Source: Sphingobium sp. TKS (lineage in GTDB: Bacteria; Pseudomonadota; Alphaproteobacteria; Sphingomonadales; Sphingomonadaceae). From it: a stretch of 64,000 nt of DNA. Of the stretch, positions 25,550-31,100 are shown piece by piece (position 1 is the first letter of the stretch; each line of letters opens with the position of its first letter). Location: positions 1,429,001-1,493,000 of the forward strand of contig NZ_CP005083.1 in the NCBI RefSeq assembly GCF_001563265.1, in the 5' to 3' direction. The notes below the pieces were generated by a model, which made no database searches, was not told the DNA's origin, and saw nothing but the letters and a program-made list of their open reading frames with translations. A program made the position numbers and the translations under genes.

Positions 25550-26293
25550 TCACCGCCCCGCCATGGCCCGGGCGTTGGCGAGATAGGTGCGGCCGATGCG
25601 AATTTCCGTATCGTCGGCCAGACAGGCGGACCAGACGCCGCTGCCGTCGTGGCGCAGCCGGGCGATATGGTCGCGGCGCACGATATGCGACCGGTGCAGG
25701 CGGACGAATTGCTGCGGGTCGAGCCGGTTTTCCAGCGAACTGATCGTCTGGTGCAGGAGATAGCTGTTCTGGCCCACATGCAGCCGCATATAGTCGCGCT
25801 CCGCCTCGATCCGGTCGATCTGGACGGCGCCGATGCGGACCAGTTCGGAGCGGTGCGGAACCCAGAATTCCTCGGCCCATTCCGGCTCGTCCTCCGCGCT
25901 GGTCGCGGGGGAGGGTGCGGCGCGGTTGCCCAGCGCTTGCTCGACCCGGTCGATCGCGCGGGACAGGCGTTCATGGGCGACCGGCTTTAACAGATAGTCC
26001 ACGGCGGCGAGGTCGAAGGCTTCCACCGCAAAGCCCTCGAACGCGGTGACGAAGATCACCGCCGGGCAGATGCCCATGCGGGAGGTGGCTCGCGCCACGC
26101 CGATGCCGTCGAGCAGCGGCATGGCGATGTCGAGCATCACCAGATCCGGCTCCAGCCCCTCGATCAGGCGCAGCGCGGCCTCGCCGTCGCTGGCGGTGCC
26201 GACCAGGGCGATGCGCGGCTCGCGGGCGCACAGCATCTGGAGGCGTTCGACCGCCAAAGGTTCATCGTCGACGATCAGCGTCCTGATGGTCAT
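25550..26293 (-). CDS. LytTR-type response regulator
   Basis: The 247-residue protein has a receiver domain (residues 1-120; acidic pocket DD at 9-10, phospho-acceptor D55 in LVMLDIAMPLLDGIG, conserved Lys in LLKPV) and a LytTR DNA-binding domain (residues about 145-245; RIEAERDYMRLHVGQNSYLL and FVRLHRSHIVRRDHIARL). This matches the LytR/AlgR class. It starts immediately after the kinase stop codon, so the two form one operon. Targets are unknown. In this family the pair often senses envelope stress or small peptides. Confidence 0.93.
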   Translation of the reverse strand: MTIRTLIVDDEPLAVERLQMLCAREPRIALVGTASDGEAALRLIEGLEPDLVMLDIAMPLLDGIGVARATSRMGICPAVIFVTAFEGFAVEAFDLAAVDYLLKPVAHERLSRAIDRVEQALGNRAAPSPATSAEDEPEWAEEFWVPHRSELVRIGAVQIDRIEAERDYMRLHVGQNSYLLHQTISSLENRLDPQQFVRLHRSHIVRRDHIARLRHDGSGVWSACLADDTEIRIGRTYLANARAMAGR

Positions 26294-27406
26294 TCAGATA
26301 CTCCGGCGGATGATGGGGAGGGTGAGGTCTACGACAAAGCCGCCGCCGGGGCGCGGGCCATAGTCGATCCGGCCCTGTGCGCCGAAGCGGGCGGTCAGGC
26401 GGTCGCGCACATTGGCGAGGCCGATGCCGCTGCCCGCATCGGCTTCGCTCGGCGGCTTGTCGCCATTGTCGGTGACGCTGAGGTGGAGCATGCCGTCCTC
26501 TTCTCGCGCGGCGATGGTGATGGTGACGGGGCTGGACGTGCGCGACACGCCATATTTGATCGCATTTTCGACCAGAGGCTGGAGGATCAGGCCGGGCACG
26601 CAGGCGGTGAGAAGCCCGTCCGGAACCTGGATACTGGTGGAGAGGCGATCCGGAAAACGCACCGCCTCGATATCCAGATAGAGTTTCTGGAGATGCACTT
26701 CCTCCTCCAAGGACACATCCTCCAGCGGGTCGCCGGTCAGGCTGGTGCGGTAGAAATTGGAGAGGGAGAGGATCATCTGTTCCGCCTCGTCGCGCCGGTC
26801 CTTCATGACGAGGGAGGAGAGCGAGTTCAGCGTGTTGAACAGGAAATGCGGGTTCACCTGATAGCGCAGGGAGCGCAGTTCGGCCTGTTGCGCGGCCTGT
26901 TCCAGCCGGACGGCGCGGCGTTCGGTGCGGTGGGCTTCGCTGGCGTAGGAAAGGGCGAGATACAGACCGGCCCAGGCGGCGAGGAAGAAATAGCGGCTGA
27001 TCGCGTCTTCCACGATCTGCATCAGGGCGAAACCCTGTTCGCTGGCATATTTCTGATAGTCGGGATCGGGGAAGAGGGATGCCGGATCGTAGATGTTGAA
27101 GACGTAGAAATTGGCCGCCGCGGTAGCCAGCGCGAAGGGCGCGGCCAGGGTGAAGGCGGCGATGATGCGCGTCGTCAGCGGCTGGCGGTCGAAGCGGCGC
27201 AGGCAGAGATAGAGAACCCAGGTGACGACGATGCCGATCACCGTCACCACGGCGCGGCGGGCGGCCATGGCCCCCTGCGCCTCGAACCCCATGACCGAAG
27301 CGCGCAGCGTCACCAGCACCGCGTAGAAGAACCAGAAACCCAGTATCGAATAAAGTGCGGCCGTCGGCGGCACGCCCGGCTCGCCGTCTTCATTTTTTAT
27401 GATCAT
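26294..27406 (-). CDS. LytS-type sensor histidine kinase (His_kinase family)
   Basis: The 370-residue kinase has four predicted membrane helices in residues 15-180, the cytoplasmic H-box SLRYQVNPHFLFNTLNSLSS, and an HATPase domain with the N-box LVENAIKYGVS and G-box GSGIGLANVRDRL. This is the LytS/YehU-like architecture that phosphorylates a LytTR partner, which follows with no gap. ATG 27406 (MIIKNEDGEP) is chosen because upstream in-frame codons to 27490 look non-coding. No ribosome site is clear, so the start is moderately uncertain. Confidence 0.9.
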   Translation of the reverse strand: MIIKNEDGEPGVPPTAALYSILGFWFFYAVLVTLRASVMGFEAQGAMAARRAVVTVIGIVVTWVLYLCLRRFDRQPLTTRIIAAFTLAAPFALATAAANFYVFNIYDPASLFPDPDYQKYASEQGFALMQIVEDAISRYFFLAAWAGLYLALSYASEAHRTERRAVRLEQAAQQAELRSLRYQVNPHFLFNTLNSLSSLVMKDRRDEAEQMILSLSNFYRTSLTGDPLEDVSLEEEVHLQKLYLDIEAVRFPDRLSTSIQVPDGLLTACVPGLILQPLVENAIKYGVSRTSSPVTITIAAREEDGMLHLSVTDNGDKPPSEADAGSGIGLANVRDRLTARFGAQGRIDYGPRPGGGFVVDLTLPIIRRSI

Positions 27407-27595
27407 GAGGAAAAGTCTAGGCCAAGGCGCGCATGCTGTCGCCCCTTGGCGGCGAAGCTGGTCGAAGGGTTCCATGCGTTGGTCGATCAAGGAGAGTGGG
27501 GTCGATCAAGGAGAGCGGGGGCGATGAGCGGAACCGCTTGTCGATGCCGCCCGTTGATCCGGAGAGGCGCCGCTTGCGCCGATAAGGAGAGAGTG

Positions 27596-28183: not shown

Positions 28184-28244
28184 TCCGGGCCGATCAGGCA
28201 AGCAGCGCATTGGCCTGGGGGGGCCGCCATGTCATAATGGCGGC

Positions 28245-28604
28245 ATGAGTGGGCCGGCGCTGAAGATCAAGATACAGATTTATTGTGGCGGGGAGATCGC
28301 CATGGGTCCGGGCAAGGCCGACCTGCTGGACGCCATCGCCAGCGAGGGGTCGATCTCCGCTGCCGGGCGCAAGTTGCGGATGAGCTATCGGCGGTGCTGG
28401 ATGCTGGTGGACGTGATGAACCGGTGCTGGGCCATGCCGCTGGTCGCGACATCGAGCGAGGGGGCGCGGCTGACCGATTATGGCGCCGGGATATTGGCGC
28501 GCTATCGGGCGATGCAGGCGGCAGCGATGGGCGTGGCGGATGCGGCGCACTGGCCCGATCTGGCGGCGGAAGTGCGGCTGGAGCCGCTGCCGGTGCAGGG
28601 GTGA
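28245..28604 (+). CDS. ModE-type winged-helix regulator (DNA-binding domain only)
   Basis: The 119-residue protein matches the N-terminal winged helix of ModE: LLDAIASEGSISAAGRKLRMSYRRCWMLVDVMNR resembles E. coli ModE SGSISQGAKDAGISYKSAWDAINEMN, followed by the wing and RLTDYGAGILARYRAM. ModE represses molybdate uptake genes when molybdate is bound. The C-terminal molybdate-binding (Mop/DI) domain is missing, so how it would sense metal is unclear. A strong ModE-like palindrome lies 64-91 bases after its stop, in front of a TonB-dependent receptor. That makes this gene the obvious regulator of the receptor. Confidence 0.82.
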   Translation: MSGPALKIKIQIYCGGEIAMGPGKADLLDAIASEGSISAAGRKLRMSYRRCWMLVDVMNRCWAMPLVATSSEGARLTDYGAGILARYRAMQAAAMGVADAAHWPDLAAEVRLEPLPVQG

Positions 28605-28667
28605 GCGGGGAATAATGTCTTTGATGGAGTGATGCTGCCTGTGCCTGCGCGGGACCATGCGGCGCCG

Positions 28668-28695
28668 TTCGCTATATACGAATATATATAGCGAA
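28668..28695 (+). promoter_or_regulatory. ModE-box-like palindrome upstream of TonB-dependent receptor
   Basis: The 11-base arms TTCGCTATATA (28668-28678) and TATATAGCGAA (28685-28695) are exact reverse complements separated by 6 bases. Arm sequence and spacing match the E. coli ModE operator (CGCTATATA, 6-7 bases, TATATAACG) almost perfectly. It is the only such AT-rich palindrome here and sits 48 bases before the receptor ATG, between the ModE-like gene and its presumed target. Confidence 0.85.
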
Positions 28696-28742
28696 TCATT
28701 TGCGATCCCTATAGGAGCCTCCCCCATCATAGAGGGGGCATC

Positions 28743-31100
28743 ATGAAATTCGGTTCGCAGGGGGTTTTGGCGGCTGTTCTGGCTTCGGTGGCGTTTTCGG
28801 CGGTCGCGTCGGCGCAGACGCCCGAGGCCGAGGGGGTGGCGGATGTCGTCATCGTCACTGCGAGGCTGCGGGAGGAAGACCCGCAGCAGGTTCCCGCTTC
28901 GCTGAGCGTCGTTGGCGGCGAGGATTTGACGCGGACCTATACGGTCAACACCAACCAGTTGAGCCAGTTGGTGCCCGCGCTCAACTATAGCTCGGCCAAT
29001 CCGCGCAATACCGCCTTCACGATCCGCGGCCTGGGGTCGAGCGTGGTGGCGGTGAGTCAGGCCAATGACGGGCTGGAGCCCGGCGTGGGCTTGTATGTCG
29101 ACGGGGTCTATCATGCGCGGCCTGCCACGGCGGCGTTCGACTTTGCCGATGTCGAGCGGATCGAGGTGCTGCGCGGGCCGCAAGGCACTTTGTTCGGGAA
29201 GAACAGCGTGGCCGGCGCGATCAGCATCGTCACGAAGAAGCCGGGCTTCGATTTCGGGGCGGAGGCGGAGCTTTCCTATGGCAGCCGCGATTTCGTGCAG
29301 GCCAAGGCGGCGGTGACGGGGCCGGTTGCGGGCGAGAGCCTTGCTTTCCGGCTGTCGGGGTCGGTAACGCGGCAGGATGGCTATATCTGGAACGTGGCGC
29401 GGGGCGAGCGTCAGAATAATATCCGCAATGACGCCATTCGCGGGCAGTTGCTGTTCCAGCCTTCGCCGGACTTTTCGCTGCGGTTGATCGGGGATTGGGC
29501 GAATTTTCGGAATGATTGCTGCGCGCAGGTTTTCGTGCGGGTGGCGCCGACCTTGAAGCCTGCCGCGCAGCGCTATGCTTCGCTGGCGGCCAATGCGCCG
29601 GGTGGGCCTTATGTGCCGCCGAGTTTCAATCCCTATGACCGGGTGACGAGTAATGACGCGCCTTTGGGCGTGGATACCGATGAGGGCGGAGTGTCCGCGA
29701 CCGCCGACTGGAAGCTGGGTGGGACGACGCTGACCTCGATCAGCGCATGGCGCTTCTGGAACTGGGATGCGGCGAACGATCGCGACTATACCGGGCTGCA
29801 CATCCAGACGACGCAGCATATTCCCTCGCGGCAGGACCAGTTCAGCCAGGAGTTGCGGATTGGGTCCAATGTGCCGGGGCCGCTCGAATATGTGGCGGGG
29901 CTCTATTATTTCCACCAGAAGATCACGGGGCGGCCGATCAGCATTTATGGGCCGCAGGCGACTTATTGGCTGCTGCCAGCGAGTGCGACGCGGACGTCGG
30001 CGCTGCTCGATGGTTATCAGACCGACGGGCGGACCGATTTCCGCAGCGAAAGCTACGGCATTTTCGGGGAAGTGACCTGGCGGCCGGTGGAGCGGTTCGC
30101 GGTGACGGGTGGGTTGCGCTATACCTATGAGGAGAAGGACGGCGTCTATGACGTGCGGACCTTTGGCGGGGTGGCGCCGACGGCGGCATTGCAGGCGGAC
30201 CAGCAATCCATCCTGCGGGCGCAATCCTATACCGCGCATGATGGCGATGGCAGCGCGTCGGGACGGGTGAATGTCGCCTATGATCTGATGGAGGGGATCA
30301 TGGGCTATGTCAGCTTCGCCAAGGGGCAGAAGTCGGGCGGGATCAACATGTCGGGTCTGCCGGTCAATGCCTCCAACCAGGCAGTGCTGACCACCGCCGT
30401 CGTCCGGCCGGAGACGAACACCACCTGGGAGGCGGGGTTCAAGACGCGGCTGTTCGATGATGCGCTGACCTTCAATATCGACGCCTATCATATCGACGTG
30501 ACGGATTTTCAGGCGAATGTGGTCGACAGTTCGGCCACGGTGGCGTTGCGCAGCTATCTGGCCAACATTCCCAAGGTGAGGGTGAAGGGCATCGAGTTCG
30601 ACGCGGCGGCGGGAATCGGATCACGGCTGGTGCTGCGGGCTTCGGGCGCTTATTCGGACGGGAAATATGCGAGCTATCCCAAGGGGCCTTGTCCCATCGA
30701 GCGGACCGGCACGGGTACGGCGCAGTGCGACCTGTCGGGGCAGGGGCTGCCGGGGCTGCCGAAATGGGTCGGATCGGCGGGTGGCGAATATCATGTGCCG
30801 CTGGCGATCGGAGCGCGGGAGGGCGAGTTGTTCCTGCGCGGAGATGCGGTGACCCGGACCCGGCTTTTGGGGGATGCCACCGGATCGGCCTATACCGTCA
30901 TCAAGGGCTATACGCTGGTCAACGGCAGCATCGGTTATCGGTCGCCGCGATGGGAAGTGGCGGTGTTCGCGCGCAACCTGTTCGACAAGGATTATATGCA
31001 GAATCTGACGGTGCAGGCCGGGAATAGCGGGTTGATCGTCGGGACACCCAGCGAGCCGCGCACGGTGGGCGTGACGCTGCGGACGAAATGGGGCGGGTGA
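28743..31100 (+). CDS. TonB-dependent outer membrane receptor, possibly ModE-regulated
   Basis: The 785-residue receptor has a signal peptide ending ASAQT, then a TonB-box-like VADVVIVTARL. A plug domain (about residues 50-160) contains FTIRGLGSS, VGLYVDGVYHAR and VERIEVLRGPQGTLFGKNSVAGAISI. A 22-strand barrel ends with a typical C-terminal strand (RTVGVTLRTKW). It actively imports a ligand across the outer membrane with TonB-ExbBD energy. The upstream ModE box suggests the ligand is molybdate/tungstate or a chelator of them. That is inference; the plug resembles general siderophore receptors. A GC-rich hairpin overlaps its ribosome site (GAGGGGG). Confidence 0.93.
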   Translation: MKFGSQGVLAAVLASVAFSAVASAQTPEAEGVADVVIVTARLREEDPQQVPASLSVVGGEDLTRTYTVNTNQLSQLVPALNYSSANPRNTAFTIRGLGSSVVAVSQANDGLEPGVGLYVDGVYHARPATAAFDFADVERIEVLRGPQGTLFGKNSVAGAISIVTKKPGFDFGAEAELSYGSRDFVQAKAAVTGPVAGESLAFRLSGSVTRQDGYIWNVARGERQNNIRNDAIRGQLLFQPSPDFSLRLIGDWANFRNDCCAQVFVRVAPTLKPAAQRYASLAANAPGGPYVPPSFNPYDRVTSNDAPLGVDTDEGGVSATADWKLGGTTLTSISAWRFWNWDAANDRDYTGLHIQTTQHIPSRQDQFSQELRIGSNVPGPLEYVAGLYYFHQKITGRPISIYGPQATYWLLPASATRTSALLDGYQTDGRTDFRSESYGIFGEVTWRPVERFAVTGGLRYTYEEKDGVYDVRTFGGVAPTAALQADQQSILRAQSYTAHDGDGSASGRVNVAYDLMEGIMGYVSFAKGQKSGGINMSGLPVNASNQAVLTTAVVRPETNTTWEAGFKTRLFDDALTFNIDAYHIDVTDFQANVVDSSATVALRSYLANIPKVRVKGIEFDAAAGIGSRLVLRASGAYSDGKYASYPKGPCPIERTGTGTAQCDLSGQGLPGLPKWVGSAGGEYHVPLAIGAREGELFLRGDAVTRTRLLGDATGSAYTVIKGYTLVNGSIGYRSPRWEVAVFARNLFDKDYMQNLTVQAGNSGLIVGTPSEPRTVGVTLRTKWGG

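Follow-up and report, generated by a model that had tools for sequence, protein, structure and literature searches.

The usual assumption is that molybdate enters the periplasm by passive diffusion. In the 64,000-nt stretch of Sphingobium sp. TKS DNA analysed here (the window), a gene for a TonB-dependent outer-membrane receptor is well supported, on comparative genomic grounds, as belonging to a molybdenum regulon, and its product most likely imports a molybdenum compound. The assignment to the regulon is made because a ModE-type box is conserved before the receptor gene, because this box and a ModE-like regulator occur together across genomes, because boxes are also found before mod genes, and because mod and moa genes are neighbours of the receptor in related loci. 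The conserved ModE-type switch before the receptor suggests that molybdenum is actively imported across the outer membrane.

Palindrome, regulator and receptor in the window

The predicted ModE-type operator (28668-28695, no strand) reads TTCGCTATATA-CGAATA-TATATAGCGAA, an exact palindrome of the form TTCGCTATATA-N6-TATATAGCGAA, and ends 47 nt before the start codon of the receptor gene. Compared with the E. coli ModE consensus, ATCGNTATATA-N6-TATATANCGAT as quoted in PMC545781, the site carries two mismatches, one at each terminal base; its inner arms and spacing are exact. The original prediction, that an exact palindrome with the arms and spacing of the ModE operator lies between a gene for a ModE-type winged-helix protein and one for a TonB-dependent receptor, is borne out, the outermost two bases of the arms being the mismatched ones. 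Within the window, the 24-nt core pattern is matched once at up to three mismatches, and none of 100 dinucleotide shuffles produced a match. In the whole 6.2-Mb genome, CGNTATATA-N6-TATATANCG occurs in exact form at the palindrome alone; with three mismatches allowed, 4 further genome sites are obtained, below the 15 of the reversed control.

The regulator gene (28245-28604, plus strand) encodes a single-domain ModE-like winged-helix protein of 119 aa (PF00126, E 4.9e-7). Its match to TIGR00637, the ModE DNA-binding domain (E 1.1e-13), amounts to 51 bits and is thus below the curated cut-off of 98.5, and the best matches among sequences of solved structure are 2ijl (E 9e-17) and ModE itself (1b9m/1o7l, E 0.003). 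The domain search found a helix-turn-helix alone in the 119 aa and no C-terminal Mop (molybdate-binding) domains, just as had been predicted; TIGR00638 (Mop) moreover gave no match in the whole genome, the same search being positive in 5 of 14 control genomes. The score below the ModE cut-off and the lack of a molybdate-binding domain count against the assignment to a molybdenum regulon. Upstream of the gene, the consensus scan returned one promoter-like site, TTGGCC-N17-CATAAT (28210-28238, plus strand; shuffle mean 0.3), which ends 6 nt before the start codon, so that an mRNA from it would be leaderless; by eye, several close relatives have a similar ATTGGCC...CATAA arrangement upstream of the regulator. 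An inverted repeat beside the gene start was rejected, as no conservation was seen by eye. On the minus strand nearby (25550-27490) are genes for a LytTR response regulator and a histidine kinase.

The receptor (28743-31100, plus strand; 785 aa) shows the plug (PF07715, E 3.4e-18) and barrel (PF00593, E 1.9e-42) domains of its class. By-eye reading of the translation points to a putative signal peptide and to the motif DVVIVTA (28842-28862, plus strand), which is probably the TonB box; V38, T39, A40 and R41 are kept in at least 97% of 35 receptor orthologues. Residues such as H124, Q355, Q358 and R508 are invariant in these orthologues, unlike in 18 paralogues, and are candidate determinants of ligand specificity; the comparison used 35 of the 37 orthologues (without L129 and L146) and 18 of the 22 paralogues (without L133, L163, L167 and L168) defined below. 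The predicted structure has the TonB-receptor fold (mean pLDDT 76) and is closest to FyuA, with 21% identity over the structural alignment. Siderophore receptors (FyuA, Fiu, FoxA, FhuA) make up most of its closest matches of solved structure, and the best NCBIfam match is TonB-siderophore, below cut-off. That the fold class is common to this receptor and to iron siderophore receptors counts against the molybdenum assignment. Model residues 83-114 are of low confidence, and no binding site is therefore proposed from the model. The consensus scan identified no promoter for the receptor gene.

Conservation of the box and its association with the regulator

Receptor orthologues were separated from paralogues by a gap in identity (at least 58% as against at most 48%). 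An orthologue is present in 15 of the 94 Sphingobium genomes and in 23 of the 397 family genomes, the window's own among the latter, which together make 37 distinct genomes; the restriction of the receptor to 15 of the 94 Sphingobium genomes is a point against the regulon. Across 298 family genomes, the exact E. coli-type pattern was found in the window's own genome only. Because that pattern is too narrow, the core CTATAT-N8-ATATAG, taken from the orthologues, was used for the counts of conservation. With up to two mismatches among the 12 core bases, it is present in the 400 nt upstream of 34 of 37 orthologues compared to 0 of 22 paralogues, the chance of such a match being about 0.4% per region by Markov resampling. 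Among the orthologues, mismatches numbered 0 in 20, 1 in 9, 2 in 5, 3 in 2 and 6 in 1; among the paralogues, 3 in 2 and 4-6 in 20. The check proposed with the original prediction, namely whether the palindrome recurs before orthologous receptors, was hence carried out and came out as conserved. For matches with up to three mismatches, the box lies 33-377 nt from the start of the protein match. To the right of the core, the positions of C and G in the E. coli consensus most often hold those bases (18 of 36 and 23 of 36); to the left, C is commonest (23 of 36) and G is not (13 of 36, T in 15 of 36).

A further set of named relatives (the best 80 of 399 matches, at 55-94% identity, with titles mostly from Sphingomonadales) overlaps the 37 genomes in several members. 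Of these best 80 of 399, 66 have a box with up to two mismatches within 450 nt. The 14 having more than two count against the regulon; five of them (L220, L221, L223, L226, L230) share an unrelated common sequence at the position of the box.

A protein search at E 1e-5 detects the regulator in 63 of the 94 Sphingobium genomes and in 127 of the 397 from the family. Of the 40 Sphingobium genomes that carry an exact box, 38 have the regulator: the box is found in 38 of the 63 genomes with it and in 2 of the 31 without (Fisher 2e-7, genomes being treated as independent of ancestry). Real sites stand to sites of the reversed-pattern control as 45 to 7 in regulator genomes and as 2 to 4 in genomes lacking it. 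The regulator likewise accompanies the receptor: it occurs in 15 of 15 receptor-bearing Sphingobium genomes versus 63 of 94 overall (Fisher 0.0013) and in 21 of 23 receptor-bearing family genomes versus 127 of 397 overall (Fisher 2e-9), both values being uncorrected for shared ancestry. One of the 21, G445, has it at E 2e-9 only, beside the receptor. Within the receptor locus itself, the regulator is found in 37 of 80 orthologue loci (best 80 of 399) versus 0 of 39 paralogue loci.

Two orthologue-bearing genomes, G217 and G436, are without regulator in the protein search. The orthologue in G217 is also the only one before which nothing like a box is seen; since longer frames of this genome give two weak matches to TIGR00637, absence of the regulator is likely there, not certain. 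G436 has a receptor box with one mismatch and no regulator found, and G319 and G353 (the latter 80% complete) have exact boxes with none in the protein search; these three genomes count against the regulon. In G367, a regulator 92% identical is present, receptor and exact box are both missing, and the regulator is directly followed by the gene that in the window stands behind the receptor. G348 has a C-terminal remnant of the receptor beside the regulator and no exact box. The states of G367 and G348 suggest that receptor and box are gained and lost together. Remnants beside the regulator (L011, L032) consist of C-terminal codons in G348 and of fragments in G373; the receptor of G380 has one in-frame stop. 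In some Sphingobium (L020, L021, L028, L031, L032), a 124-aa ORF lies between regulator and box, with no Pfam match (tested for L020) and no counterpart within the window.

Molybdenum genes beside receptors and behind boxes

In 5 of 80 orthologue loci (best 80 of 399), mod genes lie next to the receptor. The receptor frame overlaps modB in L209; modABC stands behind it in L214 (Novosphingobium nitrogenifigens); and modABC is divergent from it in L233, L234 and L238. Between modA and receptor, these last three have a box, exact in L238 and with one mismatch in L233 and L234. L209 and L214, whose receptors are in line with the mod genes, have no box, which counts against the regulon. In the 14-kb loci L240 and L241, the receptor lies among moaDE, moeA, fdhD, modC and genes for PaoC-type and YdeP-type molybdoenzymes; several of the best family matches in L240 are below curated cut-offs, and L241 was assigned by similarity. 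Linkage to mod genes is thus seen in 7 of 80 orthologue loci (best 80 of 399) versus 0 of 39 paralogue loci (Fisher P 0.057), a P value that counts against the regulon. The paralogues, 40-48% identical, have the sulfate permease gene cysT within 6 kb in 8 of 39 loci (L328, L330, L331, L346, L349, L350, L354, L356). An assignment of these permeases as ModB was rejected, as they were shown to be CysT, and the control count for modABC is for this reason 0 of 39. The duplicate stretch L340 was left out of all counts.

In a tree made by a quick method, a single branch (SH-aLRT 100) unites the orthologues with the mod-linked receptors, which sit in three parts of it. The tree took in the window receptor and 30 of 36 other orthologues (without L128, L129, L141, L145, L146 and L148), 6 of 7 mod-linked receptors (without L241) and 34 of 39 long-flank paralogues (without L320, L328, L333, L346 and L353). 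The genome's own modABC is about 140 kb from the receptor; its modA has no box (best site, 4 mismatches of 12), a further point against the regulon.

Viewed from the box, the targets are mainly receptors. The 94 Sphingobium genomes contain 47 exact boxes, 36 of them before TonB receptors, in a survey that extended to about 320 nt on each side and took several queries from box loci, so that it is descriptive and not an independent test. Orthologues of the window receptor follow 13 of the 47; a second TonB receptor family follows 21, of which 19 are shared with a divergent 179-aa gene; one box precedes a third receptor, and one separates a fourth receptor from a 179-aa gene homologue. Three precede the 179-aa gene alone, and six are before none of the queries. 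Of the remaining two, one is before modA of a modABC-modE operon (35 nt before modA of modA-modB-modC-modE in G354) and one before modB of modBC (95 nt, in G358). In G378, the regulator is followed within about 6 kb by modABC, then an exact box, then a TonB receptor of a different (the fourth) family. A further site, with two mismatches to a longer pattern, precedes a molybdoenzyme of nitrate reductase/formate dehydrogenase type fused to a CysJ-like flavoprotein. The link to molybdenum made in the original prediction is strengthened by the mod, moa and moe neighbours together with the box before a relative's modABC-modE operon.

Loci of the second family with an exact box include L058:7138-9285, L308:4398-4937 and L044:5514-6494, among others. 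The 179-aa protein, usually divergent from the second receptor, has no Pfam match, and in several loci its gene is accompanied by one for an MbnH-like di-heme enzyme (TIGR04039, below cut-off). In G353, an exact box (L304:5039-5058) lies between genes resembling a molybdopterin enzyme pair and an XdhC-like gene.

Proposed role, alternatives and known systems

We consider it probable that the receptor serves a molybdenum regulon as its outer-membrane component, with a ModE-like repressor controlling a TonB-driven molybdenum import that is continued by ModABC. In the proposed sequence of events, the palindrome that lies 47 nt ahead of the receptor's start codon would be bound by the single-domain ModE-like protein, which, if E. 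coli is a guide, would most likely keep the gene repressed as long as the cell has enough molybdenum. Under molybdenum shortage, the receptor would be made and, driven by TonB, bring a molybdenum species into the periplasm; a chelate, for example a catecholate complex, is a more likely cargo than free molybdate. ModABC, encoded elsewhere in the genome, would then complete the uptake from the periplasm, and molybdenum would be sensed through some partner or site. On a broader reading, whose chances we regard as even, the outer membrane of sphingomonads has replaced the inner one as the target of ModE control: the Mop-less ModE would chiefly switch TonB receptors of at least two families, the energised import of chelated molybdenum would be the regulated step, and the metal would be sensed at some other site or partner.

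The structural neighbours of the receptor, mostly siderophore receptors (FyuA, Fiu, FoxA, FhuA), and its top NCBIfam match to TonB-siderophore, below cut-off, speak for a receptor of iron or other siderophores that is under molybdenum control since catecholates bind both metals, with iron the main cargo and the box only adjusting expression. We think this unlikely, for in the loci read out the orthologues are flanked by mod, moa, moe, fdhD and molybdoenzyme genes. Another alternative is uptake of tungstate or another oxyanion, or of an organic oxyanion ester, as the closest paralogues may achieve for sulfate. Molybdate and sulfate are similar ions, E. coli ModE responds to tungstate too, and 8 of 39 loci of the paralogues (40-48% identical) have cysT within 6 kb. 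In the orthologue loci, however, permease queries rise above threshold in only 7 of 80 (best 80 of 399), all with a ModC match; five of the seven have a full-strength ModB match (262-273 bits), and in the other two the ModB match is cut off at the locus end, which leaves the oxyanion proposal quite improbable. If the palindrome were the site of some other regulator, the neighbouring ModE-like gene would be a bystander, a view to which the absent sensing domain, the score below the ModE cut-off and the boxes without regulator in the protein search of G436, G319 and G353 lend themselves. We rate it as highly improbable, given that the box follows the regulator over the 94 genomes (38 of 63 versus 2 of 31), that real and reversed control sites stand at 45 to 7 with the regulator and 2 to 4 without, and that the arms agree with the ModE consensus of E. 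coli given in PMC545781.

Molybdenum-regulated import, the reading we prefer, would have importance beyond the single locus. If the receptor is under molybdenum control, active outer-membrane import of molybdenum becomes directly testable in an easily grown genus, as does the search for a receptor of molybdenum-binding metallophores. It would also offer a clean case for molybdenum sensing by a Mop-less ModE, a point on which PMC545781 comes to no answer for Desulfovibrio. Among the matches listed from open-access papers, considered by title and start of the abstract, none dealt with ModE control and a TonB receptor jointly. In term searches, the word TonB was absent from the text of PMC9769707, and "molybd" from the available part of the TonB-transporter review PMC11658791.

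Compared to known systems, analogies exist with E. coli ModE and its operator in the inner arms and spacing of the site, in the predicted winged-helix DNA-binding domain and, in some relatives, in the placement of the box before mod genes. Unlike E. coli ModE, which controls modABC, the Sphingobium regulator is without Mop domains, and TonB receptors make up most of its predicted targets (36 of 47 exact boxes). In having a DNA-binding domain without molybdate-binding domains it resembles the single-domain ModE of Desulfovibrio, whose sensing is unexplained in the available part of PMC545781; the Desulfovibrio sites given there are of the form CGGTCACG-N14-CGTGACCG, whereas Sphingobium keeps the E. 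coli-type box. From FyuA and other siderophore TonB receptors, the present receptor is set apart by a regulatory and gene context that points to molybdenum. An outer-membrane step for molybdate is described for Pseudomonas aeruginosa in the H2-T6SS/ModA/IcmP route (PMC9769707 and PMC11734730), which employs a secreted ModA together with the outer-membrane protein IcmP, unlike the TonB receptor of Sphingobium.
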